64,000 nt of DNA from Moorena sp. SS36440bin_2 (GCA_011524395.1 WTKN01000066.1:1-64000); one strand, 5' to 3'; shown: positions 14,804 to 34,463, numbered from the stretch's first letter. Notes: generated by a model from the sequence alone, not told the origin. Program-made: numbers and translations.

Positions 14804-15874
14804 TTATTTAAGATGTTTAAACACTATCTTGAGGAGATCGGATTGGTTAAACGGTTTAGTCAAGTAACCAGATGCTCCAACAAGTTTAGCCTTAGCTCGG
14901 TCTAGGAAACCAGTATTGCCAGTTACCATAATAATTGGGGTATGTTTAAAAAGTGAATGCTTTCGTAGCAGAGAACATAGCTCATAACCATCTAAGTTTG
15001 GCATGGCAACATCAAGCAAAATTAGGTCAGGCTTAATACGGATAATTTGCATTAATGCCCTAACTGGGTCATTAATCATGACAACAGAGAAACTTTTATC
15101 TTCCAAGAAGGAGTTGATGGCATTTAAAACACTTGTACTATCATCAATGCAAGCAATTTTGTAAGTTTTACTGGTAGACGTTGGTTTTTGATTAACCGAT
15201 GTATTATACTGGAAGCTCTGCTCTAATTTAGCGGACTTATTTAGAGAGGGTTCGTGAATTGAGTTCAATTGTGTAGAATTTCCGATGGGGACTACAGAAT
15301 GAGAGCTATAGGGATTATTCACTGGCTTTGAGTTAGAAGAGTGCTGATGTTGTAACTGCTCGTAACAGTGTTCAACAATTGTGCGAAGGTCAAGCCTACA
15401 AAATTTAGGCAAATCCTCAGATGGATTAGTTTCTAGTAATTGGTAAGTTCCTTCTTTCTCTGACAGCAGAGAACCTATTACGTCTTCAGCCAATTCTTCG
15501 ATCAGACTTGCTGCCTGAACGGAATTAAGATAATGTTGATTAACCAACCAACAAATTGCTTGGTAATCTGAAGGATAATTTGAATGACTGTTTAAGTTGG
15601 CTTCAAAGATCAGGCGAACCTGAACCCGAACGGCACTAACAAGAGTAGGAATTCTACGACTTAGACGAGATAAGTAATGATCTAGGCGATCAAATGGGTT
15701 GATGGAGTTTGAAGCATAGACTAATTTACCATTTTCTAGATAAATTGACCAAGAAACTGAACCACTAGATACTTGTAAACATCCATTGGCATGACGACTG
15801 GATAATTGAGCCAATAAGGAAAGAGGGTTTAGTTTTTTATCATGTCTGTAGCTATTGATGTAGGTGGAGTTCAT
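14804..15874 (-). CDS. pixG: PatA/PixG-type response regulator
   Basis: This 356-aa protein has an N-terminal DUF4388/PATAN region (about 10-170, starting LNPLSLLAQLSSRHANGCLQ, with VSWSIYLENGKLVYASN), a Ser/Asn-rich linker, and a C-terminal receiver (about 237-356). Receiver features are IACIDDSTSV, acceptor Asp in LILLDVAMPNLDGYEL, MVTGNTG and the final LTKPFNQSD. PatA-family regulators head pix, hmp and pil operons; in PixG the output bears on pilus or motility machinery. It is first in the minus-strand operon with a long leader upstream, so the promoter probably lies in 15875-16000. Confidence 0.85.
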   Translation of the reverse strand: MNSTYINSYRHDKKLNPLSLLAQLSSRHANGCLQVSSGSVSWSIYLENGKLVYASNSINPFDRLDHYLSRLSRRIPTLVSAVRVQVRLIFEANLNSHSNYPSDYQAICWLVNQHYLNSVQAASLIEELAEDVIGSLLSEKEGTYQLLETNPSEDLPKFCRLDLRTIVEHCYEQLQHQHSSNSKPVNNPYSSHSVVPIGNSTQLNSIHEPSLNKSAKLEQSFQYNTSVNQKPTSTSKTYKIACIDDSTSVLNAINSFLEDKSFSVVMINDPVRALMQIIRIKPDLILLDVAMPNLDGYELCSLLRKHSLFKHTPIIMVTGNTGFLDRAKAKLVGASGYLTKPFNQSDLLKIVFKHLK

Positions 15875-17201: not shown

Positions 17202-18485
17202 ATGACTCACTTTGGCATCATTTCTCTTCCTGCTTCTGGTCATCTTAACCCTATGACTACTTTAGGTTATGAACTGAAACAGCGTGGTCATATCGTTACT
17301 GTATTAGGAGTTGAAGACGTTCAAAGGAAAGTTTTAGCCGCAGGATTAGAATTTCAGTTGATTGGCAAGTCAGATTTTCCCAAAGGAACAATCAAAAAAA
17401 TCTTTACTGAACAAGGTCATCTCAGTGGATTTAAGGCATTAAGATATACAATCTATAAGTGGAATTTAAGATTAGTAAAAATGTCTCTTCGGGATGCTCC
17501 AGAAGTCATTAAAAAAGCAGGAATAGAGGTATTATTAGTCGATCAAGCTTGTTCAGAAGCAGGAAGTATCGCTGAATATCTAGACATTCCTTTTGTCACT
17601 GTTTGCAATTCTTTAATGATGAATCCAGAAATAAGTATTCCTCCCTTTGTTACGTCCTGGAATTATGACCCTTCATGGTGGGGCATTCTACGCAACATAG
17701 TGGGGTATGTAGTGTTTCTTTTTCCGTCTTTATCTATACGAAAAGTTATTGAGAAGCATCGTAAGCAGTGGAATTTATCTCCATATCGTAAATTGATTCA
17801 ATTGTATTCCCAGTTGGCTCAAGTTAGTCAACATCCTGCTGAATTTGAATTTCCTAGAATAAAACTACCGTCTTGTTTTCATTTTACAGGTCCCTATAGC
17901 AACCCAGAGAGTCGAGAACCTGTATCTTTTCCTTATGAAAAGCTGACTGGACAACCACTCATTTATGCTTCCATGGGGACTGTACAAAATCGGCTTCTCT
18001 GGATTTTTCCAAGGATTGCAGAAGCTTGTATGGGATTAGATGCGCAATTAGTGATTGCTTTAGGTGGGGGTGCTAGTCCAGAATCTTTGCCAGAATTACC
18101 TGGAAATGCCATAGTTGTTGGCTATGCACCTCAATTAGAACTTTTACAAAAAGCGACCCTTACCATCACTCACGCAGGACTGAATACGACTCTAGAATCG
18201 TTGAGTAATGGAGTACCAATGATAGCTATTCCTATTGCCAACGATCAACCTGGAGTGGCAGCACGAATTGCTTGGACAGGAACAGGGGAGGTAATACCTT
18301 TGGGAAAAGTCAGTGTGAAGAAGTTACAAAAAGCTATCAAACGAGTTTTAACGGAAGATTCCTATAAAAAGAATGCCTTGAGGTTACAAGAGGCAATTAG
18401 ACGAGCAGGGGGAGTGAGTCGAGCTGCTGATATTATCGAGCAGGTTGTTGCTACAGGTAAACCTGTTCTTTCAGAGCAATCCTAA
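17202..18485 (+). CDS. GT1/MGT-family glycosyltransferase, copy 1
   Basis: This 427-aa GT-B enzyme is predicted to transfer a sugar from an NDP donor to a small lipid or natural-product acceptor. The N-terminal acceptor half opens with HFGIISLPASGHLNPMTTLG, and the C-terminal donor half has the UGT signature around HAGLNTTLESLSNGVP followed by IANDQPGVAARI. His13 in the GHLNP motif is the likely catalytic base. The closest functional classes are macrolide and carotenoid (CrtX) glycosyltransferases. The first half differs from the next copies, while the second half is identical in DNA to copy 2, which points to gene conversion. The acceptor cannot be named. Confidence 0.88.
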   Translation: MTHFGIISLPASGHLNPMTTLGYELKQRGHIVTVLGVEDVQRKVLAAGLEFQLIGKSDFPKGTIKKIFTEQGHLSGFKALRYTIYKWNLRLVKMSLRDAPEVIKKAGIEVLLVDQACSEAGSIAEYLDIPFVTVCNSLMMNPEISIPPFVTSWNYDPSWWGILRNIVGYVVFLFPSLSIRKVIEKHRKQWNLSPYRKLIQLYSQLAQVSQHPAEFEFPRIKLPSCFHFTGPYSNPESREPVSFPYEKLTGQPLIYASMGTVQNRLLWIFPRIAEACMGLDAQLVIALGGGASPESLPELPGNAIVVGYAPQLELLQKATLTITHAGLNTTLESLSNGVPMIAIPIANDQPGVAARIAWTGTGEVIPLGKVSVKKLQKAIKRVLTEDSYKKNALRLQEAIRRAGGVSRAADIIEQVVATGKPVLSEQS

Positions 18486-18690
18486 ATCATACCTAAAATA
18501 GGCAAAATCGTAAATATTTACTGGGTAATGGTTTCGGCCAATATATTTTACTAAATATATAAGATGGCTATACTTGTGACAAGTCAGAGGCTTAAAACCT
18601 AGGTATTGTAAAGATAACACTTATGAAAATTACCACAAGATATTTAGGGATGCTATAGTCAAATTTATTAACAAATGTTTCTATGCTTAT
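17805..18690. repeat. Segment identical to 19830-20715 (about 886 bp)
   Basis: Read by eye with a fixed offset of 2025, these two segments match from the TATTCCCAGTTGG point in the middle of the glycosyltransferase gene, through the stop codon, and about 200 bases into the spacer; the first difference is at 18691/20716. The glycosyltransferase N-terminal halves differ clearly. A third, shorter near-identical patch lies in copy 3 (about 21862-22213). Confidence 0.85.
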
Positions 18691-18840
18691 CCTAAATATA
18701 ATTTAGTATAGTCAGGTTTTCAATGAAATGAAAATATTTTGCCTGTGGTAACAAAAAATGCCAGTTATGTAGAAAAAAATTCAAGAATAAATTAAATAGG
18801 GAATTGATCTGTACGAAGGTGATGTCGAATCCAATGGCAA
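18676..18840 (+). pseudogene. Decayed 5' end of an FkbM methyltransferase gene (spacer 1)
   Basis: This spacer aligns with the start of the intact FkbM gene at 22548. Shared landmarks include TTATTAACAAATG before the start, AAAATATTTTGCCTG (18731-18745; matching intact sequence near 22590-22604), a TAAATTAAATAGGGAATTGA-like stretch, and GTACGAAGGTGAT. Frameshifts and the loss of the remaining roughly 690 bases leave no product. It shows that the tandem unit was once glycosyltransferase plus methyltransferase. Confidence 0.78.
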
Positions 18841-19226
18841 ATTAAAATTATTAATTGGTAAAGCGCACTTTTATAATTAGTTACCGTAGTGCTAAAAATT
18901 TTAAAAACATTTTTAAGATCGTCACCGTTGCGTTTACAATCGTCGAATTAAATTTGCCACTGATAGCACGGCGATGTTGGCATAGCTTTTGGTATGTCAC
19001 TGATAAATATATTGTTTATAAACCGTTTATTAATGATATTGCTTATTGAATAAATATAGATAGATTTACTAGAGATTAATACAACATTAATAGACTCTTT
19101 GTTAGGCAATATAGATGCAGTATTTACTACTATAAATATTAATAAAATACTCGTTGAATACGATTAATTATATATTTAAATAGTTTTATGTATAATTTTA
19201 AAAACACGTTTTTTTTATAAAGTTAA

Positions 19227-20510
19227 ATGACTCATTTTGGCATCATTTCTCCTCCTGCTTCTGGTCATCTTAACCCTATGACTACTTTAGGTTATGAACT
19301 TAAAAAGCGTGGTCATCGCGTCACCGTATTAGGCATTGAAGATGCTCAACCAAAAGTTCTAGCCGCAGGATTAGAATTTCAGTTAATTGGGAAGTCAGAT
19401 TTTCCCAAAGGAACAATCAAAAAAAAGTTTACTGAACTAGGTTATCTCAGTGGTTTTAAGGCATTAAACTATACAATCAATAATTGGGTTTTACTTTTAG
19501 TAAAAATGTCCCTTCGGGATGCTCCAGAAGTCATTAAAACAGCAGGTATAGAGCTATTAATAGTCGATCAAACTTGTCCAGAAGGAGGGACTATTGCTGA
19601 CTATCTAGACATACCTTTTGTCACTGTTTGTAATTCTTTAATGCTGAATCGAGAAATAAATATTCCTCCCTCTAGCACGTCCTGGAATTATGACCCTTCA
19701 TGGCGGGGCATTCTACGGAATAGACTGGGTTTTGCACTGATTTATCCTCTGATTTTATCTATACGAAAAGTTATTCAGGAGCATCGTAAGCAATGGAATT
19801 TATCTCCATATTATAAGCCGAATCAACACTATTCCCAGTTGGCTCAAGTTAGTCAACATCCTGCTGAATTTGAATTTCCTAGAATAAAACTACCGTCTTG
19901 TTTTCATTTTACAGGTCCCTATAGCAACCCAGAGAGTCGAGAACCTGTATCTTTTCCTTATGAAAAGCTGACTGGACAACCACTCATTTATGCTTCCATG
20001 GGGACTGTACAAAATCGGCTTCTCTGGATTTTTCCAAGGATTGCAGAAGCTTGTATGGGATTAGATGCGCAATTAGTGATTGCTTTAGGTGGGGGTGCTA
20101 GTCCAGAATCTTTGCCAGAATTACCTGGAAATGCCATAGTTGTTGGCTATGCACCTCAATTAGAACTTTTACAAAAAGCGACCCTTACCATCACTCACGC
20201 AGGACTGAATACGACTCTAGAATCGTTGAGTAATGGAGTACCAATGATAGCTATTCCTATTGCCAACGATCAACCTGGAGTGGCAGCACGAATTGCTTGG
20301 ACAGGAACAGGGGAGGTAATACCTTTGGGAAAAGTCAGTGTGAAGAAGTTACAAAAAGCTATCAAACGAGTTTTAACGGAAGATTCCTATAAAAAGAATG
20401 CCTTGAGGTTACAAGAGGCAATTAGACGAGCAGGGGGAGTGAGTCGAGCTGCTGATATTATCGAGCAGGTTGTTGCTACAGGTAAACCTGTTCTTTCAGA
20501 GCAATCCTAA
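19227..20510 (+). CDS. GT1/MGT-family glycosyltransferase, copy 2
   Basis: This 427-aa paralogue of the gene at 17202 has the same GT-B layout: GHLNP near residue 13 and the donor-site signature HAGLNTTLESLSNGVP. From about residue 202 to the end it is identical to copy 1 in protein and apparently in DNA. The acceptor-binding N-terminal half differs at scattered positions (for instance TCPEGGTIADYLD against copy 1 ACSEAGSIAEYLD). Divergent acceptor halves with a shared donor half would fit three enzymes using one sugar on related acceptors. It starts ATG after an AT-rich leader ending in a run of T, similar in all three copies. Confidence 0.88.
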   Translation: MTHFGIISPPASGHLNPMTTLGYELKKRGHRVTVLGIEDAQPKVLAAGLEFQLIGKSDFPKGTIKKKFTELGYLSGFKALNYTINNWVLLLVKMSLRDAPEVIKTAGIELLIVDQTCPEGGTIADYLDIPFVTVCNSLMLNREINIPPSSTSWNYDPSWRGILRNRLGFALIYPLILSIRKVIQEHRKQWNLSPYYKPNQHYSQLAQVSQHPAEFEFPRIKLPSCFHFTGPYSNPESREPVSFPYEKLTGQPLIYASMGTVQNRLLWIFPRIAEACMGLDAQLVIALGGGASPESLPELPGNAIVVGYAPQLELLQKATLTITHAGLNTTLESLSNGVPMIAIPIANDQPGVAARIAWTGTGEVIPLGKVSVKKLQKAIKRVLTEDSYKKNALRLQEAIRRAGGVSRAADIIEQVVATGKPVLSEQS

Positions 20511-20700
20511 ATCATACCTAAAATAGGCAAAATCGTAAATATTTACTGGGTAATGGTTTCGGCCAATATATTTTACTAAATATATAAGATGGCTATACTT
20601 GTGACAAGTCAGAGGCTTAAAACCTAGGTATTGTAAAGATAACACTTATGAAAATTACCACAAGATATTTAGGGATGCTATAGTCAAATTTATTAACAAA

Positions 20701-20865
20701 TGTTTCTATGCTTATGCTAACTATAATTTAGGATATTCAGGTTTTCAATCAAATGAAAATATTTTGCCTGCGGTAACAAAAAATGCCAGTTATGTAGGAA
20801 AATATTAAAGAATAAATTAAATAGGAAATTGAGCTGCACAAAGGTGATATCGACTCCAATGGCTA
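20701..20865 (+). pseudogene. Decayed 5' end of an FkbM methyltransferase gene (spacer 2)
   Basis: A second remnant matches the intact gene at 22548 and the remnant in spacer 1: AAAATATTTTGCCTG occurs at 20756-20770, and GAGCTGCACAAAGGTGATAT parallels the intact GAGCTCCACGAAGGTGATAT. Stops and frameshifts abolish the frame. The sequence after it (to about 21090) is homologous to spacer 1 but has no recognisable coding content. Confidence 0.78.
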
Positions 20866-21230
20866 CTTAAATTTTCAATTGTTAAAGCTTACCTTTATAA
20901 TTGGTTGCCCTAGTGAGTGCAAAAATTTGAAAAAGATTAGTAATATCGTTATCAGTGCGCTTACATTCGTCGAATTAAATTCGCCACTGGTTCCACCGCA
21001 ATCTTGGCATATATTTTAGTATATCACTGATAACTATATTGTTGATAAACTGTTTATTGATGATATTGCTTATTGAATAATAATATATGACTATAATAGA
21101 GAATAAAATACAACATTGAGACACTATTGAGTATGGCCATATCAATTAACTATATACTAATTTAAATAAATTTTGAAAAAAAATATTGAATTTATTAATA
21201 TATAAAAAAACGTTTTTTTTATAAAAAAAA

Positions 21231-22517
21231 ATGACTCATTTTGGCATAATGTGTCCTGCTGCTTCTGGTCATCTTAACCCTATGACTACTTTAGGTTACG
21301 AACTGAAACAGCGTGGTCATCGCGTCACCGTATTAGGCATTGAAGACGCTCAACCAAAAGTTCTAGCCGCAGGATTAGAATTTCAGGTTATTGGCAAGTT
21401 AGATTTTCCCAAAGGAAGCACAAAGGACTCATTTACTCGACTAGGTAATTTGAGTGGATTTAAGGCATTCCAGTATACAATGAATAGGATGGTCAATGTA
21501 GCAAAAATATTACTTCGGGATACTCCAGAAGTAATTAAAGCAGCAGGTATAGAGGTATTGTTAGTCGATCAAGCTTCTCCAGAAGGAGGAACTATCGCTG
21601 AGTATCTAGACATTCCTTTTGTTAGTGTATGCAGTGCCTTAATGCTGAATCGGGAAATAAGTATTCCTCCTTTTTTCAGCTCCTGGAATTATGACCCTTC
21701 ATGGCGGGGACTTCTACGGAACAGAGTGGGTTATGCACCGCTTGATCTTATGGCGATACAATCTCTGAAAAAAGTTGTTAATGAGTATCGCAAGCACTGG
21801 AATTTATCTCCCTATCATAAGCCCAATCAAAACTATTCCCAGTTGGCTCAACTTAGTCAACAACCTGCTGAATTTGAATTTCCTAGAATAAAACTACCGT
21901 CTTGTTTTCATTTTACAGGTCCCTATAGCAACCCAGAGAGTCGAGAACCTGTATCTTTTCCTTATGAAAAGCTGACTGGACAACCACTCATTTATGCTTC
22001 CATGGGGACTGTACAAAATCGGCTTCTCTGGATTTTTCCAAGGATTGCAGAAGCTTGTATGGGATTAGATGCGCAATTAGTGATTGCTTTAGGTGGGGGT
22101 GCTAGTCCAGAATCTTTGCCAGAATTACCTGGAAATGCCATAGTTGTTGGCTATGCACCTCAATTAGAACTTTTACAAAAAGCGACCCTTACCATCACTC
22201 ACGCAGGACTGAATACTACCTTAGAATCATTAAGTAATGGGGTACCAATGGTAGCTCTTCCCATTGCTAACGATCAACCTGGAGTGGCGGCGCGGATCGC
22301 TTGGACAGGAACAGGGGAGGTAGTACCTGTAGGCAAAGTCAGGGTGGAGAAGTTACAAAAAGCTATCAAACGAGTCTTAACTGAAGATTCCTATAAAAAG
22401 AATGCCTTGAGGTTAAAAGAGGCAATTAGACGATCAGGAGGAGTGAATCGAGCTGCTGATATTATCGAGCAGGTTGTTGCTTCAGGTAAACCTGTTCTTT
22501 CTCACATCACTACCTAG
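21231..22517 (+). CDS. GT1/MGT-family glycosyltransferase, copy 3
   Basis: This 428-aa third paralogue is the most diverged at both ends (MTHFGIMCPAASGHLNP; C-terminus GKPVLSHITT). The centre, about residues 211-330, is identical to copies 1 and 2, while later residues differ again (MVALPIAND, VEKLQKAI). It keeps the UGT donor signature. It is the only copy still followed by an intact FkbM methyltransferase, starting 30 bases after its stop, so copy 3 plus that gene may represent the ancestral pair. Confidence 0.88.
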   Translation: MTHFGIMCPAASGHLNPMTTLGYELKQRGHRVTVLGIEDAQPKVLAAGLEFQVIGKLDFPKGSTKDSFTRLGNLSGFKAFQYTMNRMVNVAKILLRDTPEVIKAAGIEVLLVDQASPEGGTIAEYLDIPFVSVCSALMLNREISIPPFFSSWNYDPSWRGLLRNRVGYAPLDLMAIQSLKKVVNEYRKHWNLSPYHKPNQNYSQLAQLSQQPAEFEFPRIKLPSCFHFTGPYSNPESREPVSFPYEKLTGQPLIYASMGTVQNRLLWIFPRIAEACMGLDAQLVIALGGGASPESLPELPGNAIVVGYAPQLELLQKATLTITHAGLNTTLESLSNGVPMVALPIANDQPGVAARIAWTGTGEVVPVGKVRVEKLQKAIKRVLTEDSYKKNALRLKEAIRRSGGVNRAADIIEQVVASGKPVLSHITT

Positions 22518-22547
22518 TAAAACTTATTAACAAATGGTTCTATCCTT

Positions 22548-23372
22548 ATGGGAAATATAATTAAAGAAACTAAGCTTCCTAATGGTAACAAAATATTTTG
22601 CCTGCGGGAAACAGAAGTACCAATTCTGTACGAACAGATTCAAGGGTACATTAAATATGGAATTGAGCTCCACGAAGGTGATATAGTGTTTGATGTAGGA
22701 GCTAACATTGGTTTGTTTGCCTTATGGGCATATCAAAACTGTCATAAAAATGTTAATATTTATGCTTTTGAACCTATTCCAGCAGTTTTTAATGTACTAC
22801 AAGCTAACGCTCAACGCTTTGATTCAGATAAAATTAAAGCCTTCTCCTGTGGACTTTCTCAGGAATCTAAGAGTATAACATTCGCTTATAACCCCAACGC
22901 TAGCATGTTATCTAGTGCATATCCAGAGGATTCAAATGAGATAAAAAATCAACTTAATCAGTCTATTTTTCGTAATCTTAAATACGCTCAAAAAAACTTT
23001 CATTGGCTTTTTTTATTTCCGAAGTTTATGCGGCCATTTTTTATCGAAAAACTAATGGAAAGAACTTTTAAAATCGAGCGGATAACTTGCCAGTTAAAAA
23101 CTCTCTCAGAGATGATAAGGGAACAGAATATCGAAAAGATTGATTTGCTTAAGATAGATGTCGAGAAAAGCGAGTTGGATGTACTTTTAGGCATCGAAGC
23201 TCAGGATTGGCAAAAAATCAAGCAAATTGTTGTTGAAGTTCACGATCTAGAGGATCGACTCCAAACAATTACGAATTTGCTCAAAGAACAGGGCTTAAGC
23301 GAAATTCAAGTCGAACAAGAACCTCTGTTTCAGGGTTCTAATATTTTCAATGTGTATGCCTGGCGAGGATAA
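22548..23372 (+). CDS. FkbM-family SAM-dependent methyltransferase
   Basis: This 274-aa protein has the SAM-binding motif VFDVGANIGLFAL at about 47-59, then IYAFEPIPAVFNVLQAN and the later LLKIDVEKSELDVLLGIE. These are the hallmarks of FkbM enzymes, which O-methylate sugars or polyketide hydroxyls. The 30-base gap to the third glycosyltransferase suggests co-transcription and a role on the sugar or on the same acceptor. Its 5' end survives as remnants in both upstream spacers, so this is the last working copy. The palindrome-based terminator at 23627 probably ends the transcript. Confidence 0.88.
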   Translation: MGNIIKETKLPNGNKIFCLRETEVPILYEQIQGYIKYGIELHEGDIVFDVGANIGLFALWAYQNCHKNVNIYAFEPIPAVFNVLQANAQRFDSDKIKAFSCGLSQESKSITFAYNPNASMLSSAYPEDSNEIKNQLNQSIFRNLKYAQKNFHWLFLFPKFMRPFFIEKLMERTFKIERITCQLKTLSEMIREQNIEKIDLLKIDVEKSELDVLLGIEAQDWQKIKQIVVEVHDLEDRLQTITNLLKEQGLSEIQVEQEPLFQGSNIFNVYAWRG

Positions 23373-23419
23373 TACTGAGATTTCCAAGCTTAAATAGAAA
23401 CAGCTGATGGGGTGAAAAC

Positions 23420-23548
23420 TCAGGGCAAACGCATATTATTTTTGTGCATGCTGGCAGGGTCAGGAGTGTAGCGATCGAGTCCTGTTTTTCATGAATTGAT
23501 GAAATCCTTACTAGATAAGGCTTGTGGAATTTAGATGCGTTTGCCCTG
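23420..23548. mobile_element. 129-bp MITE with 14-bp TIRs and 9-bp target duplication
   Basis: CAGGGCAAACGCAT (23421-23434) is the exact inverse of ATGCGTTTGCCCTG (23535-23548). Both sides carry GGTGAAAAC (23411-23419 and 23549-23557), a 9-bp target duplication. There is no coding capacity. GATGCGTTTGCCCTG-type ends occur on cyanobacterial DDE insertion sequences as I recall them, so a full-length parent elsewhere in the genome is likely. Confidence 0.8.
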
Positions 23549-23626
23549 GGTGAAAACCCCGTTAAAAAGCTGATGGCATTGTAGTCTGAATACAGTTAAT
23601 TTGTTAAGAATGACACGGTTTTTTTA

Positions 23627-23818: not shown

Positions 23819-24934
23819 TTATAGTTTGTTGGCGATTTTATCAAACTTGTACTCCTGATAAACAAATGAAAGATCTTTGAGAATCTGCTCTCTTGTTAAA
23901 TTAAATTCTTCAAGATTTCTGACACGATGTTTGCGTTTATATTTTTTTTGTTTTTGCGCTTGTTTTTGAATAGCTTCTTTTAATTGATTACTGGGATTAA
24001 TTCCAGTAAAATTTACTATTTCTTCCCAGGCTTTATCTAAATCGGATATTAATAAATCATAACGCATAATTCTGACGTTGCTTTCTGGTATCTCTTGATT
24101 TTTTTGAAGCTGATAAAAATAGCGATAAAGGTCTACATTATAGCGATATCGCCTTTCATCATATCGTTTAATTTTCTCGGGTGGTATATTTTTTAGACCC
24201 CATTGGTTATCCAGAAAGTTTCTATCCAGGGAAAGATGAGAAGGAATTGTTTCGTGAGGTGGACGAACTAAATAGATAAATTTGGCATCTGGAAATATTT
24301 CTAGCAATGTTTTAATGCGGTGAGTAGAAAAATGAATTTGCGCAACTACTTGTTTGTTACCTGTGTAATAGATATGCCGCTTTAAACAACTTTCAAAAAA
24401 TTTTACTGAATTTCGACGACGAGATGCTGGTTGTTGATCATGGAAGCGAAGCTCCGGATGCTCCTGATCATCAAAGGCTAAGGGTGTGGTTAAAAGCACA
24501 AATTGAGTATCGGCTTGGTGAAGGAATAATAGTTCTTCTTCTTCTACTCTATCAAGAGAAATTCCATGTCCAATATCATCAGGTATCACGGAGTTGAGAT
24601 TGTGTTTAACTAAATAGTCAACCAGAGGTTTAACTAAAATACGTGCTGTCAGAGATGGCACAAAAATATGCCAAGTTTTGAATGTACTAAATTCTTCTGT
24701 CTGAGTTAATACATGATGGAGAAAAGTAGTACCACTGCGAGGGTGTCCAATGATAAATATTGGTTTCACCACCTTAATGTCACGATACTTAGAAAAGAAA
24801 ATTTCATCTAAAGCCAGGCTTAGTCTAAGCAAAATAAAAGCTAAGGGTGGCAGAAATACCCATAAAAAAAACCAGTGGCTAAACCCAAATGTTTTCCAAC
24901 AGGAAATAATAATTCTGTAATAAATCTTTAACAT
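23819..24934 (-). CDS. PAPS-dependent sulfotransferase
   Basis: This 371-aa protein is predicted to move sulfate from PAPS to a hydroxyl. The 5'-phosphosulfate loop HPRSGTTFLHHVL spans about 64-76. The 3'-phosphate region is seen in KFIYLVRPPHETIPSHLSL near 210-230, and IMRYDLLISD follows. An N-terminal hydrophobic segment (about 20-42) suggests membrane attachment, fitting a lipid substrate. It is last in the minus-strand array, 113 bases after the O-methyltransferase. A sulfotransferase at the end of a type III PKS operon suggests sulfation of a phenol or pyrone hydroxyl, but this is inference. Confidence 0.85.
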   Translation of the reverse strand: MLKIYYRIIISCWKTFGFSHWFFLWVFLPPLAFILLRLSLALDEIFFSKYRDIKVVKPIFIIGHPRSGTTFLHHVLTQTEEFSTFKTWHIFVPSLTARILVKPLVDYLVKHNLNSVIPDDIGHGISLDRVEEEELLFLHQADTQFVLLTTPLAFDDQEHPELRFHDQQPASRRRNSVKFFESCLKRHIYYTGNKQVVAQIHFSTHRIKTLLEIFPDAKFIYLVRPPHETIPSHLSLDRNFLDNQWGLKNIPPEKIKRYDERRYRYNVDLYRYFYQLQKNQEIPESNVRIMRYDLLISDLDKAWEEIVNFTGINPSNQLKEAIQKQAQKQKKYKRKHRVRNLEEFNLTREQILKDLSFVYQEYKFDKIANKL

Positions 24935-25047
24935 GTTTTATATTAAAAATATTGATGATAAATATTTTTTAGCAATTAGAAACATATATAGCAGTTCTCA
25001 ATTTGAGAACTGCTATAATAACTAATAAGTGTATCTGTCCAACAGAC

Positions 25048-26085
25048 TTAGGGCTTTACTGCCACCTGTTGACCACTAGCTGGTGTTTGCCGGAACTCAA
25101 TGGGTTTGCGGGGAACTAAACCTGCCTTTTGTTGCCATTGAGCTATGTCAGAGAAAGACCAGTTACTACCAGCACTGGTCAAAGAGAAAAACAAATTCCC
25201 TAATGCACCCAGTTGTCCATTTTCTTTGGAAGGAAATATAGTTTTCTGAACGACAAGATGGCCTCCAGGTCGCAGAGCTTGAGCCAAACGCTGAAATAGC
25301 TCAATATTAGTTTTTTCATCAAAGTGGTGTATTAGGTTAGCCATAAAGATTAAGTCATAGGCATTGGTGCCTAGATCGTCTTTAAGAACATTCCCAGCTT
25401 TGTACACCACGCGATCTCCCATGCCTTCCTTGGCAAGGAGTGGTGCTGCATATTCAATGCCCTCAGGTAAATCGAAGATGACCGCTTGAAGATCAGGGTA
25501 GCGGCGGCAGAGGGCTACTGAAAAATAGCCGTGAGAACCACCAACATCTAGCATTTTCTGAGCACCATTTGGTACAGGTGTGTATTGGACTACCTCAGGA
25601 GCAGCTACACTAGCTATTGAGCGCATACCCCGATGATAAAGTTCCCAGTGATGGGGGGACATTTTATCGTGAGATTCCAGAGGGTCTCCAGTGCGGATGA
25701 ACTCTTCTAAGTGGGTGAGCCATTCCCACGCCAAAACCCGGCTAATGGTATAATCGTAAAGTGATGACTCATTCTCACGTAGTAGCCATTTACGGGCAAC
25801 TGGAGCCAAAGTATAGCTCTCCCCCTTTTTAGCAAGGTAATTTGTAGCAACAAGAGCATCTAAAAGCTGAGTTAAAGCATGCTTGTTGAGATTACAACGC
25901 TCAGCAATTTCTTGGGCGGAAAGTGGACTTGACCCTAGGGCTTCAAACACACCTAGCTGTGTTCCTGCTATCAGAGATCGGGCTAAAATCAGGCAGGCTT
26001 GAGTTTCAATCGCAGGTTGGGGTAGTTGCCCCAAGGCGAGGGCACTCTTTTCGAGGAAGTTTTCAGGATTAATACCAACTCTCAT
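25048..26085 (-). CDS. SAM-dependent O-methyltransferase (plant/hydroxyneurosporene type)
   Basis: This 345-aa enzyme has an N-terminal winged-helix dimerisation domain (about 25-105: TQLGVFEALGSSPLSAQEIA, NLNKHALTQLLDAL) and a C-terminal Rossmann domain. The SAM loop is MLDVGGSHGYFSV (178-190), and DLIFMANLIHHFDEK supplies the catalytic-histidine region. The family methylates phenolic or enolic oxygens. Its start overlaps the stop of the upstream ICMT-like gene by four bases (ATGA), so the two are translationally coupled. A type III PKS product is the obvious substrate. Confidence 0.9.
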   Translation of the reverse strand: MRVGINPENFLEKSALALGQLPQPAIETQACLILARSLIAGTQLGVFEALGSSPLSAQEIAERCNLNKHALTQLLDALVATNYLAKKGESYTLAPVARKWLLRENESSLYDYTISRVLAWEWLTHLEEFIRTGDPLESHDKMSPHHWELYHRGMRSIASVAAPEVVQYTPVPNGAQKMLDVGGSHGYFSVALCRRYPDLQAVIFDLPEGIEYAAPLLAKEGMGDRVVYKAGNVLKDDLGTNAYDLIFMANLIHHFDEKTNIELFQRLAQALRPGGHLVVQKTIFPSKENGQLGALGNLFFSLTSAGSNWSFSDIAQWQQKAGLVPRKPIEFRQTPASGQQVAVKP

Positions 26086-26678
26086 CTAGAACTATTAGCT
26101 CCTTTAATAAATCCAATGACTGGAATAAAACGGGGTTGATTGGCAAAGACATCAGCATAGTTGGTGTCTTCGCTTAAGGCTTGTTCTTCAGTGGGAATAC
26201 GCCGACTCATTAATAGAGCATTGGCGATGCTGAAAACGATAGTGGTGAGATATGCACTATGGATCAGGGGTAAAGCGGCAATTTCGAGAATTACTCCTAG
26301 CCAATTCGGATGCTTTAGGTAACGGTAAATTCCTGAGTTAACTACAGGCAAGCCTGGAAAGGTAATGATGGGAAGAGTCCAACGCTTTAAGAGCGATCGC
26401 ATTGATAAATATCGCAAGCCTTGACCAGCTAAAGTAAGCATCAGTGCGATCGCTGCCAATCCTGGGATAAAGGGGCGGTTGAGCCACCAAACCTCGTTAA
26501 TCATTGCTGCAAACCAGCTCACCTGCAATACTTTCACTATCCAAAGGGAATTTGATCCATATTCCCTTCCTCCGTTAGTAAGCAAGTATGCTGCATTTTT
26601 TTTGCTAATACGAAGTTCAATCAGTCGCTGTAAAATGACCGCAACTACAACAAGCGTGAAGATAACCTTAGTAATCAT
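26082..26678 (-). CDS. ICMT-like membrane methyltransferase
   Basis: This 198-aa protein belongs to the isoprenylcysteine carboxyl methyltransferase family. It has four or five hydrophobic segments and the conserved C-terminal region GIYRYLKHPNWLGVILEIAALPL, followed by RIPTEEQAL. Bacterial members often sit next to type III PKS genes; Bacillus BpsB, which methylates alkylpyrones made by BpsA, is the known example. Here it starts 10 bases after the type III PKS stop. Methylation of an alkylpyrone or alkylresorcinol in the membrane is therefore a well-supported guess. Confidence 0.85.
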   Translation of the reverse strand: MITKVIFTLVVVAVILQRLIELRISKKNAAYLLTNGGREYGSNSLWIVKVLQVSWFAAMINEVWWLNRPFIPGLAAIALMLTLAGQGLRYLSMRSLLKRWTLPIITFPGLPVVNSGIYRYLKHPNWLGVILEIAALPLIHSAYLTTIVFSIANALLMSRRIPTEEQALSEDTNYADVFANQPRFIPVIGFIKGANSSR

Positions 26679-26688
26679 TGACCACTTA

Positions 26689-27810
26689 CTACCATTGGAA
26701 TAGCAGAATTTCCTGGGAGAAACCTGGTCCCATTGCCACCATCAAGCCATAACTACCTGGACTGGGCTGCTCTTGAGATAAAACTTCATTGAGCATATAG
26801 AGCACAGTGGATGAGGACATATTGCCAACTTTTTCTAAGGTGTCCCAGCTAAGCTGTACTGCCTCCTGAGTCAGTCCAAACTCTTCTTGTACAGTTTTAA
26901 TTACCTTCGGTCCACCTGGATGCACAATCCAGGTGGATATATCATCTGTTGATAAGTTATGCTTGTTCAGCAGTGGGTCAATCACCTCTCGCAGTCCTCC
27001 TTTGAGATGGTCAGACACTTCAGGTCTGAGAATATTCTTGAACCCGGTATCGGCAATATCCATTCCCATCAAGTGAGTGGTATTGGGAAGCAACATTGAG
27101 GCAATATCAATTACCCGAGGTTGACCTGGCTTGGCTAAGGGATGATCGCGACCTACCATTAAAACTGCTCCCATCCCATCAGCAAACAGTGCAGCAGTAA
27201 CGATAGAGCAAATGATTTCGCTGTAGAGAGAGGGGTCGTCTGGTAGTTTAGAAATCATTGTTTGCAATTCCATTTGCAAGGAACCCTGCCACAGAGTAGA
27301 GGAGAGTTCACCAGCAAAGAAAATTGCAGCATCCTTGGGGTGTCCCTCTAGGTACTCTGTCACTCGCGCTATACCTGCTGCTCCACCCATACAGCCATAG
27401 CCAAACATTGGTAGTCGTTTAATGTACCGTGAAAAAGGAATGCGATTCATTAACCGAGCTTCCAGGGAGGGAACCGAAATGGTTAGTGTAGAGGAAGCGA
27501 TTAATCCGATCTCCTGGGGGTCGATGCCGGTTGAAGATAACAATGACCCCACAGTTTTTTCAAAGTTATCGAGAGCAAGGTTTATAGACCGCTCAGCAGT
27601 AACTCCGGGAGTCGATGGGTCAAAGAAGAAATCTAGGGAGTGGGTGAAATAACGGCCTTTGATATTGACATTGTTGAAAAAGCGGTCGATGGTATCTAGA
27701 TCAAAATCTAGATTCATAGCGATGCAAAACTTTTTGACCGCTGTGGCTAGCACTTCTTGAGGATAGTAGTGCTCGGGAAACGTAAAGGCAGTACCAGCAA
27801 TAACAGGCAT
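26689..27810 (-). CDS. Type III polyketide synthase (chalcone/alkylresorcinol-synthase family)
   Basis: This 373-aa homodimeric ketosynthase-like enzyme uses malonyl-CoA to extend an acyl starter and cyclise it, typically to alkylpyrones, resorcinols or phloroglucinols. The catalytic triad is clear: Cys140 (FGYGCMGGAAG), His297 (VHPGGPKVI) and Asn330 (VGNMSSSTVL). The C-terminal GPGFSQEILLFQW is the usual GFGPG-like motif (AMGPGFS). The order type III PKS, ICMT-like, O-methyltransferase is compact. A starter may be passed from the adjacent ACP-bearing type I PKS, as ArsA hands chains to ArsB in Azotobacter. Ring type cannot be predicted. Confidence 0.93.
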   Translation of the reverse strand: MPVIAGTAFTFPEHYYPQEVLATAVKKFCIAMNLDFDLDTIDRFFNNVNIKGRYFTHSLDFFFDPSTPGVTAERSINLALDNFEKTVGSLLSSTGIDPQEIGLIASSTLTISVPSLEARLMNRIPFSRYIKRLPMFGYGCMGGAAGIARVTEYLEGHPKDAAIFFAGELSSTLWQGSLQMELQTMISKLPDDPSLYSEIICSIVTAALFADGMGAVLMVGRDHPLAKPGQPRVIDIASMLLPNTTHLMGMDIADTGFKNILRPEVSDHLKGGLREVIDPLLNKHNLSTDDISTWIVHPGGPKVIKTVQEEFGLTQEAVQLSWDTLEKVGNMSSSTVLYMLNEVLSQEQPSPGSYGLMVAMGPGFSQEILLFQW

Positions 27811-28132
27811 GATAATTTTAGTCTTAAATAGCTGAAAAGTTAGTGGGTTGAAAGTTAGTTGTTTTAAGGTTGCAAGTTAGTCGGTTTTTCGCTTAGCGTG
27901 GCCTTTTAGCCAAGGTTTATTTAAGGATTTTGCTGCTTTGTCAAAATAGTGGTTAGTGGTTAGTAATTAGTAGTGACTAGTTAGTAGTTAGCACTTAGAT
28001 TAGGAAAATTGTTATTCTTTGTTCTGAGGAATAGTATCTTGGTGGTAGGCCATTTTCGATCAGGGAGTGGGATTTGACACCATCCCATCACCCCATCACC
28101 CCATCACCCCATCACCCCATCACTCCATCACC
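27811..28132. repeat. Spacer with GTTAGT tract and CATCACCCC minisatellite
   Basis: The roughly 310-base spacer between the two PKS genes holds a GTTAGTGGTTAGTAATTAG-type tract (about 27950-27990) and a 9-bp CATCACCCC array (28079-28132). The array overlaps the last codons and stop of the type I PKS gene. No gene is seen. Confidence 0.75.
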
Positions 28133-31100
28133 TTGACAAGTTGGCTAAGTTGGGTAGCGATCGCTTCCAATAAAAGCTGGTCATGGCTCTTCAGGAAGAA
28201 GTGGTCGCCGGGAAACATTTGCATGGTGAAGTCTCTCTGGGTCTGCTTGCGCCAAGCCTCAAGTTGCGAATCACTGACTTTGGGGTCGGATTTGCCACCA
28301 AACACTGTGATTGGGCAATCGAGGGGATCTGCACTAGAGTAGAAGTAAGTTTCCAAAATCGCAAAGTCTGCTCGCAACACCGGGAGGAATAGCTCCATCA
28401 GCTCAGGGTTTTGTAATGTTTCCTCTGGTGTTCCATTTAAGCGACCTAGTGACTCGATAAACTCATCATCAGGCAGTCGATGGATGGGTAGATTCAGATC
28501 CGGTACCTGAGGAGCAGGGCTTGCAGAAACAAATAGATGAACTGGGCTCGGTAAGTTCTGTTTGCGTAACTCACGGGCAAGCTCAAAGCTGATTAACGCT
28601 CCTAAACTGTGACCGAAAAAGGCAAAAGGAATGTCTAAGTAAGAACGCAAAACAGGTGTTAGCGCCTGAATCAAAGCTGAAAGGCGAGTAAATGGCTCTT
28701 CTTGGAGTCGGTTCTCTCGCCCAGGCAGTTGAATTGAACAAACCTCAATGTCTGGTGGTAGAAATTCTAACCAAGAGCGGAAGATAGAAGCACCAGCTCC
28801 GGCATAGGGAAAGCAAAATAGACGTAGTTTTGCGTGAGAATTCAGCTTTGGACGGGTGACCCAAAGATTGGCTTGAGCTACTACCTTCTCTGAAGAGGTG
28901 ATTTTCCCTAAAGACTCATTAGTTGAATCCATCGAGTCCGTACTGCTTGGTTTGCCTTCAGTTCCTTCATTAGGTGATGAGTTGGCTTCTTTAACAACCA
29001 GCAGGAGAACTTGGGTGATAAAATCCTCAATGCTCAAACCAATGAAGTATTCTAGAGGAACAAGCACCTCTAGATCAGTCTCAATTTGATTCCTGAGCTC
29101 AACACCCACTATGGAGTCAAGTCCTATGCTATGAAGGGGCTGCTGTAAGTCCAGTTGGCTGACACCAATTCCCATAACCCTGGCTAATAATTCTGTCAAG
29201 TAAGACCCCAACAGTCCCTGGCGTTCTTCTGGTTCTGCTGCCAGCAATTTAGCGCGGGTTAGACTTGGCTTAGCTTCTGGTGCGACACCATCATTAGGGG
29301 TGGATTTCCCATTAAGTTCTGATGGCATGCTCACGGTTAGGGTTACCCCTGAACTCTCCTGTTCAGTTGAGTTAGAAACTACATCCAACCAGTAACGCGA
29401 TCGCTGCCAAGGATAAGAGGGCAAGGAAACACACTGACCCCCAGATGGATAGCGTCGGCTCCAGTCTACTGAGTAGCCCTGGGTGTAGAGAGTACCCAAA
29501 GAACCCAACATAACTGCTGTTTCCGGTTGCTGTCGCCGTAGAGAAGGCAATACTGTTCCGTTTTTGTCTGAGTTTTTCAGACACTGGGAGATATTTATCC
29601 CTAGGACTGGGTGGGGGCTAATCTCTAGAAATAGATTATGCTTAGTCTTGATAAGTTGATCAATGGCAGCGGCAAAACGCACGGGCTCTCTGATATTGCG
29701 TCCCCAGTAGGCAGCATCAAAATTTTCACCCTGATGAGCTAGACCTGTAACGGTTGAGATGATTGGAATAGATGCAGTTTGAGGTGTAATTCCTTGAAGC
29801 GATCGCACTAATTGATCTTGATACGGCTCCATCTGGGGACTGTGGAAAGCATAATTCACCCGCATCATCTTACAGAAAATCTGTCGCTGCTCAAGGGACT
29901 CAAGCACTTCTTCCAGGGCTGCTGCTTCACCTGATAGAACCAGTGAGGTAGGACTATTGATGGCAGCAATAGAAAGACGACCGGCATACTTAGCTAAGAG
30001 TTCTTCTGCCTCAGCTACGGACAACTCCACAGCTGCCATTTTCCCAAAACCTGTTCCCTGCTGCATTAAGCGAGCACGGTGGAAAACAACTTGGATTGCA
30101 TCCTCCAAGCTAAGAGCTCCGGCAACATGAGCTGCTGCTACTTCTCCCACGCTATGGCCGATAATGGCTTTAGGTTCTATTCCCCAAGACCGCCACAAAG
30201 CAGCTAAAGCAACTTGCAAGGCAAAAATAGCTGGCTGAGCAATCTCAGTTTCTGCTAAGCGGGATGTAGCCTCATTAGCAGTCAGTTCTTCTAGGAGTGA
30301 CCAGTTGGCATAAGAACGTAGTAGCTGATCGCACTTCTCTATAGTGGAGGAAAAGACCGGTTCAGTAGATAATAATTCACGCCCCATCCCCCACCATTGG
30401 GGTCCTTGACCAGAAAAGACAAAAACTAGCTTAGGACGCCGGTTCCGTTGCTTACGACCCCAAGACAGACCAGAGTAAGTTTCTCCAGAGCAAAATGCTT
30501 TAAGGCCCTCGGTCAGTTCCTGACAGTTTTGAAATACCAGGTACAAACGGTGGTCATGATTAGAACGTCGTACACTAGCTGTATAACAAATGTCTGATAA
30601 TGAGGCAGTGCTACCAGACGCTGCTGGTGTTACGAATTCCTGATACTGCTTAGCTAAAGCTATCAGAGCTTCTGGACTGCGAGCAGATAAGGGAAGCAGA
30701 TAAGGTAACGAGGAGACCTCAGGAGAAACAACTGTGTTTTTCTCCAACTCCTCATCCCCTTGGGGAGCTTGCCCTAGAATGATATGGGCGTTAGTTCCGC
30801 CAAAACCAAAGGAACTCAATCCAGCCAAAGCTAGACCATCGGTTTCTGGCCAAGGGGTCAGGGTTTGCTGTACCTGAAGCAGAAGTTTGTCGAAGGCAAT
30901 ATAGGGATTCGCTGTTTGGAAATGCAGGCTCGGTGGTATCTTGCCATGATATAACGATAGCGCTACCTTAATTAGACCAGCAATGCCAGCGGCAGATTCT
31001 AGATGACCGATATTGGTTTTAGCGGAACCGATAATACAGGGGTTATCCGGGGAACGGTCTTGACTCAAAACAGCCCCTAGTGCTTCGGCCTCAATTGGGT

Positions 31101-32046
31101 CTCCTAAGGGAGTTCCTGTACCGTGAGCTTCGACATAGTTAATTTGAGCTGGTGCCACTCCAGCATTTGCCAAGGCTTGGCGGATAACTGCTTCTTGAGA
31201 CGGACCATTGGGAGCGGTAAGTCCGTTGCTACGGCCATCTTGGTTAAGGGCTGAACCCTTGATCAGAGCAATGATATTGTCATTGTCTCTAATCGCATCC
31301 TCCAGACGTTTGAGTACTACAACACCACAGCCTTCTCCCCGAACATAACCGTTGGCTCTAGCATCAAAAGTTTTACAACGCCCATCTGTAGCCATCATTT
31401 GTGCCTGAGAGAAAATGATGGTCAACTGTGGAGACAGCAGCAGATTAACTCCACCCGCCAAGGCTAAATTAGACTCTCCACTCTGCAGACTTTGACAGGC
31501 AAGATGTACAGCCACCAATGAAGAGGAACAGGCTGTGTCAATCGCCATACTCGGCCCTCGAAAATCAAATAAGTAGGAGAGGCGGTTAGCAGCAATACTT
31601 AAAGCATTACCAGTCCCCATGTAGGCATTTATGGCATTATACCCTCCTTCCTGAAAGCGCTGGTGGTAATCGCCGGCAGAAATACCAACAAAAACACCTG
31701 TGTTACTGTGGGCTAGTTTTTCTAATACCTGCCCAGAATTTTCCAGAGCTTCCCAAGCTACCTCTAGCAATAGTCGCTGCTGCGGGTCGATATAAACTGT
31801 CTCTCTCGGAGTAATTCCAAAAAATTGGGGGTCAAATTGATCTACTTGTTCTAAAAAGCCACCCCACCGAGTACTCATTTTGCCTGGAGTACCAGGTTTA
31901 GGATCGTAGAACGCATCGATATCCCACCGATCGGCTGGTACTTCTGTAATGGCATCTACCCCGTTACATAGGACCCGCCAATACTCCTCCGGGTTTCTGG
32001 CACCAGGAAAACGACAACCTAGACCAATAATTGCGATCGCATCCAT
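28120..32046 (-). CDS. Single-module type I polyketide synthase, KS-AT-ACP-TE
   Basis: In this 1308-aa protein the KS (1-425) has Cys173 (DTACSSSL), His308 ([12 protein letters not shown]) and His348 ([10 protein letters not shown]). The AT (about 540-830) has [10 protein letters not shown], Ser632 in GHSVGE, and YAFHS at 732-736, a hybrid of the usual HAFH (malonyl) and YASH (methylmalonyl) motifs. After the LPSYPWQR linker comes an ACP with Ser978 ([10 protein letters not shown]), then a RifR-like thioesterase (about 1073-1300) with Ser1147 (GHSLG). No KR, DH or ER is present, so one pass would add an unreduced beta-keto unit. The free ACP gene is 55 bases upstream. It could load a carrier-bound acyl chain and release or transfer a beta-ketoacyl product to the type III PKS. 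Confidence 0.93.
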
Positions 32047-32101
32047 TTCTTAACCTTCATCTGAACTTTGGTCATGATTACCACTACTGGCTGCTTGATG
32101 T

Positions 32102-32383
32102 TTAACTATTGGGATCTTCAGCTAAACGTTCTGCTAGGGCTTCGATGTTGGGATAGTTCCACAACAGAGTGGGAGATACCTCACGGCCAAGATAGTTTTC
32201 TAATCTACTTAAAAGAATCAAAGCATCCGCTGATTCTAGGTTGTAGCTTTCAAATGGTTCCTGGATATCTATCTCTTCAGGATCAACCTCCAGTCCTTCG
32301 GCGAGTTGAGAAACTAACCAGGCTTGAATAGCTTCTTCAGTATGACATTCTTGATCGATTTGATCAGGGATAGTTTCAAGCAT
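32102..32383 (-). CDS. Free-standing acyl carrier protein
   Basis: I start this 93-aa protein at the ATG (32383) rather than an upstream TTG, because the residues before it are low-complexity and the ACP fold begins at MLETIPDQ. The carrier motif is YNLESADALILLSRLENYLG, with the phosphopantetheine Ser in ESADAL, then SPTLLWNYPNIEALAERL. This is the pattern of stand-alone ACPs that serve FAAL-type loading systems, but no FAAL is present here. It sits between the exporter genes and the type I PKS, spaced 97 and 55 bases, so it probably delivers the starter acyl chain. Confidence 0.87.
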   Translation of the reverse strand: MLETIPDQIDQECHTEEAIQAWLVSQLAEGLEVDPEEIDIQEPFESYNLESADALILLSRLENYLGREVSPTLLWNYPNIEALAERLAEDPNS

Positions 32384-32480
32384 TTTGTTGACTTTTTTAG
32401 TTATTTTTAATTTGTAATTTTTTGAAAAAAATGTCAATTACTAATTGGTAATTGCAGTTAATTGATGTTAATAGCAATTT

Positions 32481-33221
32481 TCAATTTTCAATTTGTCTTT
32501 CGACTTTTGCATTTTCTACTTCGTTATTAGCTGGTGACTGTGGTGTGACTAGATACCCGTCTTCCATACGAAGGATGCGATCAGCAACATCCAAAATTCT
32601 GTTATCGTGAGTCACCATCAAAATAGCGCATTCTTGCTCAAGAGCTAGTCGTTGCATAATATCAACCACATCTCGACCTGTCTTACTATCTAAAGCAGCA
32701 GTTGGTTCATCTGCTAAGACCAATTTGGGCTGATTGACTAAAGCACGGGCAATGGCTACCCGTTGTTTTTGACCCCCAGAAAGGTTTTGAGGGAAGTGAT
32801 TAACTCGATCCCCGAGCTTAACTAGTTTGAGCATGGCTTCAGATCTAGTGCGAGCTTCCCGCTTAGAGATGCCTCGATGCAGTTCAATCGCCATTTGAAC
32901 ATTTTCCCGAGCTGTCAAGAACTCTAGTAAATTGTGAGCTTGAAAAATATAACCAATGTGGCTACGCACTGATACTAATTGAGCAGGACTAGCGCCATAC
33001 AATTCTCGGTCTATAATTTTTAGACTTCCTTCTTGTACAGAACGCAATCCTCCAATTAACGTCAACAACGTTGTTTTACCTGACCCCGATGGCCCCGTTA
33101 GAATTACAATTTCTCCAGATTTTATTTCGAGATTAATGTCAAATAAAATTTGGCTCCGTAATGACTGTTGACCCAAGTAATGATTCAGTTTTTTTATATC
33201 AATCACAATTTCTTGGGACAT
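32481..33221 (-). CDS. devA: ABC exporter ATPase, DevA type
   Basis: This 246-aa nucleotide-binding subunit powers export through the adjacent permease. It has Walker A GPSGSGKT (43-50), signature LSGGQ (147-151), Walker B LVLADEP (167-173) and the switch His in MVTHD. It belongs to the MacB/LolD-like DevA class. The DevBCA system moves heterocyst glycolipids in Nostoc with a TolC-like outer membrane protein; no tolC is in this window. Its place at the head of a PKS operon suggests it exports that lipid product. Confidence 0.9.
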   Translation of the reverse strand: MSQEIVIDIKKLNHYLGQQSLRSQILFDINLEIKSGEIVILTGPSGSGKTTLLTLIGGLRSVQEGSLKIIDRELYGASPAQLVSVRSHIGYIFQAHNLLEFLTARENVQMAIELHRGISKREARTRSEAMLKLVKLGDRVNHFPQNLSGGQKQRVAIARALVNQPKLVLADEPTAALDSKTGRDVVDIMQRLALEQECAILMVTHDNRILDVADRILRMEDGYLVTPQSPANNEVENAKVERQIEN

Positions 33222-33290
33222 CGGGTTTTTTGATTATACTCTAGTAATTATCAAGTTTATAATCTGGCTATCAAATTTATAAAAATAAAA

Positions 33291-34463
33291 TTAAAAAATA
33301 TCAGCTGGATCGGCAGACCGCATTTTGTTAACAGCTAATACACCAGAAGCAAAACACATTAAAATTGTTACTATTAAAACTAGAAAGGATTGATTAAGTC
33401 TCATTTCCATTGGTAACCCAGTAGCATCATAGACAACATCATACAGAGCTATAGAGATTGCTAATCCTGGGATATAGCCTAAAACAGCTAATATAACAGA
33501 CTGTTGAAATACTAAAAATAATAAGTATTGATTTGGATAGCCAATTGCTTTTAGAGTGGCATAGGCAACTAAGTTAGTAGAAATATTACTATGAAGAATT
33601 TGATAGACAATCACTACCCCAACCACTGCTGCCATAACGAGCATCAGACTAAGTATAAATCCAATCGGAGTTCTTGTCTTCCAATAGTCTTTTTCCAAGT
33701 CAATAAATTCTTGATAAGAAAAAACTAGAACATCTTTAGATAAGTGGTTTTGCAAATTTTTTAAAACCATTTCCTTATCGGCATCAGGTTTGAGGTTAAT
33801 GACTCCTACATCAATCATTTCTGAATTGACATTGAATATCCGGAACAATGTTGAGTCGCCAACTACCAAATTACCGTCCACCCCAAAAGAAGGTCCTAGA
33901 GTAAACAAGCCTCGAACCTTAACTCGATAACCTTTTCTGGCTGCAAAGCCAAATATTTCAATAGTTTGTTCCGTGTTTCCCTGCTCAAAGTTCTCAGCAA
34001 TTGGACCAAAATCAGGTCTAGACCCCCGGTCAAATAAAACTACATTAGGAAGTTTTAGAATATCCAGGTTTTGATTGATTTCCGGGGAACTAAGCACAGG
34101 CTTTCCCGGATCAAACCCAATAACATAGATTGAGAACTTTTGATCAGTAATGGGATTTTTGAATTTCGCAAATCTTAGATATAATGGACTAACTGATTCT
34201 ACTCCATTAAATCCTCGAGCCTGATATAAACGCTCTCTAGGAAAGCTCTGCTTAGCGGTCAATGATTTATATTGGGAACTAATTAAAAATAAATCCCCTT
34301 TGATAATTTGATGCACCTTGACAGCACTAGTATAAAGAGAATCGTTAAACCCAAGTTGCATAAAAATAAGAACAACGATAAACGAAATACCAGCTAGAGC
34401 AACCAGAAACCGAACTCTTTGTCTCGCTAGTTGTAACCAGGCAATAGGCAGTTGGAGAATCAT
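33291..34463 (-). CDS. devC: ABC exporter permease, DevC type
   Basis: This 390-aa permease has TM1 at about 17-37 (FLVALAGISFIVVLIFMQLG), a large periplasmic domain (about 40-265), and three C-terminal membrane segments (about 270-295, 310-345, 355-380). This is the MacB-fold topology of FtsX-like DevC proteins. It ends with the conserved NKMRSADPADIF, typical of DevC. It is encoded between the membrane-fusion subunit and the ATPase, spaced 202 and 69 bases. Confidence 0.9.
   Translation of the reverse strand: MILQLPIAWLQLARQRVRFLVALAGISFIVVLIFMQLGFNDSLYTSAVKVHQIIKGDLFLISSQYKSLTAKQSFPRERLYQARGFNGVESVSPLYLRFAKFKNPITDQKFSIYVIGFDPGKPVLSSPEINQNLDILKLPNVVLFDRGSRPDFGPIAENFEQGNTEQTIEIFGFAARKGYRVKVRGLFTLGPSFGVDGNLVVGDSTLFRIFNVNSEMIDVGVINLKPDADKEMVLKNLQNHLSKDVLVFSYQEFIDLEKDYWKTRTPIGFILSLMLVMAAVVGVVIVYQILHSNISTNLVAYATLKAIGYPNQYLLFLVFQQSVILAVLGYIPGLAISIALYDVVYDATGLPMEMRLNQSFLVLIVTILMCFASGVLAVNKMRSADPADIF

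Follow-up and report, generated by a model that had tools for sequence, protein, structure and literature searches.

Gene conversion has probably homogenised the C-terminal halves of tandem glycosyltransferases beside a single intact FkbM methyltransferase gene in Moorena

The window analysed here is a whole stretch of 64,000 nucleotides from Moorena sp. SS36440bin_2 (GCA_011524395.1 WTKN01000066.1:1-64000), whose draft genome (G000) comprises 7.75 Mb in 441 contigs and whose closest named relatives are SIO3H5 and SIO3I8. Between positions 17202 and 23372 it carries three glycosyltransferase (GT) genes and one FkbM-family methyltransferase gene, arranged head to tail on the plus strand: GT1 (copy A1, 17202-18485, 427 aa), GT2 (copy A2, 19227-20510, 427 aa), GT3 (copy B, 21231-22517, 428 aa) and FkbM (22548-23372, 274 aa), which starts 30 nt downstream of GT3. 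All four open reading frames are intact, and those of the GTs start 2025 and 2004 nt apart. An earlier reading of the sequence alone (the sequence-only reading) had given the bounds of the locus, the 2.0-kb period and the survival of three glycosyltransferases with one methyltransferase correctly, and had explained them as a triplicated two-gene cassette from which two methyltransferase copies were lost. The bulk of the close resemblance among the units appears to be the product of gene conversion of the C-terminal half, which that reading had missed.

The GTs are UDP-glycosyltransferases of family GT1 (UDPGT/MGT type) and clear the gathering scores of the Pfam profiles UDPGT (PF00201, 78-86 bits, cutoff 19.5; 9e-23 for GT1) and EryCIII-like_C (PF06722, 59 bits, cutoff 31.7). 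They fall short of the cutoff of 260 bits for NCBIfam TIGR01426 MGT at 203.5 and 200.7 bits (5e-60 for GT1), and by that rule are relatives, not members, of the family. The intact FkbM passes the cutoffs of PF05050 (74 bits, cutoff 22.7; 1.9e-20) and TIGR01444 (103 bits, cutoff 37.7; 1.5e-29). An AlphaFold2 model of GT3 (mean predicted local distance difference test score 91.6) adopts a GT-B fold, with OleI (2iya) as the best Protein Data Bank (PDB) match and 7vm0 also matching; the fold matches comprise OleI, YojK, CalG2 and YjiC. The catalytic residues His14 and Asp113 and the C-terminal donor-site motif HAGLNTTLESLSNGVPM are intact in GT1, GT2 and GT3. All three are complete and catalytically plausible enzymes.

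The N halves of GT1-GT3 are 80-87% identical, so that 13-20% of bases differ. By contrast, GT1 and GT2 share a tract of 886 identical nucleotides (17805-18690 and 19830-20715, plus strand) that spans codons 202-427 and runs 205 nt beyond the stop codon, and the DNA flanking it differs by roughly 10-20% on either side. Within this tract, a stretch of 353 nt (codons 212-329) is identical in all three copies (17835-18187, 19860-20212 and 21864-22216, plus strand); a permutation test on silent codons matched it in 0/20000 trials. Among codons for conserved residues, 21/153 (14%) differ between GT1 and GT2 in the N half versus 0/210 in the C half (p 5.6e-9), and synonymous divergence (dS) drops from 0.21 to 0. 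We thus found local silent-site homogeneity between paralogues, diverged flanks and, as described below, conflicting trees, the features by which gene conversion is recognized, and conclude that the C-terminal, donor-binding halves have in all probability been homogenised in this way. The likelier direction of copying is from GT3, the probable donor, into GT1 and GT2, because the 353-nt tract is closer to the B-type gene of SIO3I8 (L036_8001, 90.8%) than to its A-type gene (L036_6585, 83.8%).

Each of the eight comparisons put the best change point within codons 202-215. In the AlphaFold2 model these codons come after the last long helix of the N domain (158-189) and before the first strand of the C domain (253-257), so that the switch lies in the interdomain linker. 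Residues that vary among GT1-GT3 cluster in helices 63-72, 76-105 and 158-189, where 47-66% of positions are variable, versus 2% in 207-330. The ratio of non-synonymous to synonymous divergence (dN/dS) is approximately 0.6 in the N half and 0.2 in the C half, and in some pairs it rises locally, within codons 156-200, to about 1 or beyond.

The same pattern, with change points at much the same position, emerged from tandem GT pairs in the loci that we fetched from other cyanobacteria, for which cross-locus pairs of equal N identity served as the baseline. Amino-acid identity in the N and C halves was 57% and 95% in Xenococcaceae MO_188.B29, 53% and 94% in Calothrix MO_167.B12, 55% and 86% in Okeania SIO3I5, and 54% and 87% in Trichodesmium MAG_R02, which puts these pairs about 4 to 6 standard deviations (SD) over the expected C identity (70-72%, SD 4). 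Okeania and Trichodesmium, being related, may share part of this history. Silent sites follow suit: the proportion of differing codons for conserved residues in N versus C was 52 versus 17% in the Xenococcaceae locus (L037, p 1.6e-10), 60 versus 15% in the Calothrix locus (L039, p 3e-15), 30 versus 12% in L101 (p 2.5e-4) and 33 versus 15% in L106 (p 5e-4), and dS fell from 1.94 to 0.29 in L037 and from 2.57 to 0.26 in L039. Orthologue pairs, used as controls, showed no silent-site drop in the C half, where divergence was equal or higher. One such pair, L037_9324 and L039_9324, is reversed at silent sites (12% in N, 27% in C); these genes are sisters in the N-domain tree (support 100/100), a relationship that the C domain rejects (p 1.6e-65). 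Homogenisation of the C half appears to be recurrent, not universal, and is absent from some older pairs. In the open-access literature we found no report of gene conversion in bacterial glycosyltransferases or of the present locus, which is not proof of absence.

The trees of the two domains give different accounts of how the three GTs are related. On N domains, GT1 pairs with GT2 (100/99), and this pair clusters with the first of the two SIO3I8 GTs (L036_6585, 100/90), whereas GT3 is the orthologue of the sole GT that SIO3H5 has at this site (L035, 100/99) and of the second GT of SIO3I8 (L036_8001, 98/87). A single clade of GT1-GT3 is rejected on N domains (approximately unbiased test, p 1.5e-5), whereas the C-domain tree unites the trio (100/99). 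Because of the N-domain groupings, copies A and B probably predate the split from SIO3I8, with A doubled afterwards, and a simple triplication is not supported. The other part of the sequence-only reading, that the duplicated unit was a two-gene cassette, fares better: an intact GT+FkbM pair is present on a second contig of SIO3H5 (L038), and further pairs occur, intact in Calothrix MO_167.B12 (L039), also in L026 and L058, and at least partly at a contig end in Xenococcaceae MO_188.B29 (L037), where FkbM runs to residue 113. At the same site, with conserved flanks, SIO3H5 has one GT and SIO3I8 two, both without FkbM. Two further Moorena genomes (G001 and G002) have other genes there, and we found no GT or FkbM relics at the site in either. 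The GT+FkbM cassette is thus apparently old, and loss of FkbM beside these GTs apparently recurrent in the genus. The interval from a response regulator (14804-15874) to a sulfotransferase (23819-24934) is a variable island between conserved flanks in Moorena; its content differs in every genome examined and includes GTs, a fucosyltransferase-like gene, a 934-aa HAD/ACP-like protein and a second sulfotransferase.

Each spacer between the GTs keeps the 5' end of an FkbM gene, as had been claimed, and only the last copy is intact. Relic 1 (18661-18826, plus strand) extends from about 30 nt 5' of the start to approximately codon 46, and relic 2 (20686-20851, plus strand) is 91.6% identical to it. 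Alignment with the intact gene gave 75.5% identity for spacer 1 (18661-18823, E 1.6e-29) and 76.4% for spacer 2 (20686-20850, E 1.0e-31). The similarity to the gene at 22548 is above background: Smith-Waterman scores were 126 and 135, versus 37 for the best of 300 dinucleotide shuffles and 22 for DNA upstream of GT1, and the 15-mer AAAATATTTTGCCTG is present at 18731, 20756 and 22590. A translated search recovered both relics independently (E 5.4e-6 and 6.4e-5), each with five in-frame stop codons, which occupy identical positions in the two. The METHYLTRANSFERASE relics of both spacers also end at the same point, just 5' of the S-adenosylmethionine-binding motif FDVGANIG, and past these approximately 165 nt we found no further similarity to FkbM in the spacers. 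Identity of the relics to the FkbM of L038 is 80-81%, compared with 75-76% to the intact gene of the window, which suggests a kinship with the former, although a 166-nt tree does not resolve their placement.

The rest of each spacer consists of an IS1-family relic, a repeat nested within it and the DNA upstream of the next GT. The 3' part of a decayed IS1-family transposase directly follows FkbM relic 1 (18867-19181, plus strand; translated match at 18972-19181, E 6.6e-11), and a second comes after FkbM relic 2 (20880-21181, plus strand; 20999-21181, E 5.7e-6); both extents were drawn from DNA alignments, the first to a copy in the same genome. The query protein, pieced together from Moorena copies, matches PF03400 DDE_Tnp_IS1 at 52 bits, and multiple, mostly decayed copies of this transposase occur in all four Moorena genomes searched. 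At equivalent places inside the two IS1 relics lies a 55-bp multicopy Moorena repeat (18925-18980, matching L143-L147 at 82-85%; 20954-21007, at 86-92%). Its core of 44-50 bp has many copies, up to 100% identical across different Moorena genomes. Other IS1 relics contain a different Moorena repeat (GCGATGCAGCGCGGTCTTGGGG...CCCCCATGAGCGACTGC) close to the equivalent position (L140:1000-1450 and L141:1020-1120), which suggests an insertion hotspot.

Together, these data suggest the following history. Duplication of the cassette would have produced copies A and B before the Moorena strains split. An IS1-family insertion would then have broken the FkbM of copy A, as the adjacency of the relics suggests (both are decayed 3' parts of the transposase), and the gene decayed. 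Copy A, together with the disrupted methyltransferase gene, would next have been duplicated into GT1 and GT2, after which the donor-binding C halves were repeatedly copied, from a GT3-type gene into GT1 and GT2 and then between GT1 and GT2, while the acceptor-binding N halves kept diverging. On this view the three enzymes would draw on the same sugar donor but glycosylate different acceptors or positions, and FkbM would methylate what they produce. We consider this proposal as a whole, from an old GT+FkbM cassette to a tandem GT-B family with recurrently converted donor halves and a presumed common donor, to be probable. Several points weigh against it. Where the breakpoint seems to fall is influenced by a linker motif conserved at 203-219, and its exact position should be read with caution; the tandem pairs L036, L093, L057, G421 and G080 lack the pattern at silent sites; and a dN/dS of approximately 0.6 in the N domain is compatible with relaxed constraint as much as with diversification. 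The draft assembly spans an 886-nt perfect repeat, which could affect neighbour order or exact identity, and the notion of one donor with different acceptors is taken from the general division of labour between the N and C domains of GT-B enzymes (PMC8795383).

Loss of two methyltransferase copies by independent decay after triplication of the whole cassette, the course favoured by the sequence-only reading, would explain why three units recur every 2.0 kb and why two spacers contain FkbM relics. It is contradicted by what the relics have in common, namely all five stops, the point at which they end, the IS1 remnant and the repeat nested in it, and by the N-domain tree, which parts GT3 from GT1 and GT2. 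To save this course, one of two independently broken copies would have to have been replaced by the other through conversion, and we judge it very unlikely. Because these features are common to both relics, the simplest reading is that a single FkbM copy was broken once, decayed and was then duplicated; overwriting of another copy by a broken one would likewise leave a single surviving decay history. A greater likeness of the C halves could also arise without gene conversion if purifying selection held the donor domain strongly in place, in keeping with the lower dN/dS there. Such selection cannot explain the identity, because silent codons behave likewise: dS falls in L037, in L039 and between GT1 and GT2, whereas in orthologue pairs silent divergence in C is equal or higher. 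As the identity of GT1 and GT2 also runs past the stop codon and the N- and C-domain trees conflict, we give this explanation hardly any credence.

The 886-nt and 353-nt identities might instead be an artefact of short-read assembly or consensus over near-identical repeats, since the genome is a draft and the perfect repeat exceeds the typical short-read length. A strong, imperfect version of the pattern in four other independently assembled genomes and the clean ends of the tracts in diverged DNA on both sides make this improbable. A much more serious contender, to which we give somewhat less than an even chance, is that conversion is real but neutral, tandem copies being close together and their C halves alike enough for recombination, so that sharing a donor domain would serve no selected function; it departs from our proposal in the last, functional step only. 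Gene conversion among tandem bacterial repeats is commonplace, and pairs that are inverted or more diverged (L097, G421 and G080) are not homogenised, as neutrality would have it. Against it, breakpoints cluster at one linker across several genera and are not spread, which the conserved motif explains in part.

Immediately 3' of FkbM is an inverted repeat (23409-23560; 33-nt arms, 76% complementary, 86 nt apart); we found no structured RNA in the region with Rfam, and a promoter scan gave AT-rich matches too numerous to use. From 23819 to 35970 there follow a sulfotransferase, an O-methyltransferase, an isoprenylcysteine carboxyl methyltransferase (ICMT)-like methyltransferase, a type III-like ketosynthase and a polyketide synthase (PKS) of ketosynthase-acyltransferase-acyl carrier protein-thioesterase (KS-AT-ACP-TE) organization, with DevA/DevC/DevB-type exporter genes after the latter. 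The part from the sulfotransferase to DevBCA, most of the cluster, is conserved in both GT-less Moorena genomes. Its presence in both suggests a conserved lipid or polyketide product; a functional link between the GTs and the cluster is not established, because most of it is kept in genomes without the GTs.

A decayed methyltransferase duplicate is ordinary on its own. The interesting part is the apparent domain-limited concerted evolution, a variant of a known process whose functional reading is unproved. If our interpretation is correct, GT-B enzymes in several genera have recombined, naturally and repeatedly, at the interdomain linker where engineers attempt domain swaps, and the locus supplies ready-made N/C combinations for asking whether N sets the acceptor and C the donor. 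Trees built from whole glycosyltransferase genes are deceptive in this case, since each half has a history of its own.

Among known systems, the MGT/YjiC-type enzymes of family GT1 (OleI, OleD, BsYjiC, YojK and CalG2) match best in the PDB, in fold as well as in sequence, and resemble the Moorena GTs in their GT-B fold, the position of the catalytic histidine and the donor-site motif; the Moorena GTs differ in that identity is about 24%, in scoring under the MGT cutoff and in occurring as a tandem trio whose C halves have been converted. The cyanobacterial GT+FkbM pairs (L038, L039, L037, L026 and L058) have the same gene order, with FkbM downstream, but each locus contains a single GT or a pair, and we found no decayed FkbM relic in any of them. 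Domains of PKS and nonribosomal peptide synthetase (NRPS) biosynthetic clusters undergo concerted evolution, in which internal recombination homogenises particular catalytic domains within a cluster (PMC4256081); those domains belong to multimodular synthases, whereas in Moorena one half of free-standing glycosyltransferases is affected. In the vertebrate UGT1 locus, variable first exons are combined with common C-terminal exons (PMC1885805), so that, as here, many N-terminal acceptor domains go with one common C-terminal donor domain. There the C domain is shared by splicing to common exons, with little gene conversion, whereas in Moorena separate complete genes would share it through gene conversion, so the likeness is one of analogy only. 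It is conceivable, if rather doubtful, that cyanobacterial tandem GT arrays are a bacterial counterpart of UGT1, in which selection keeps spreading one donor domain to every copy through crossovers at the linker, leaving the acceptor domains free to diversify while sugar specificity is kept constant.

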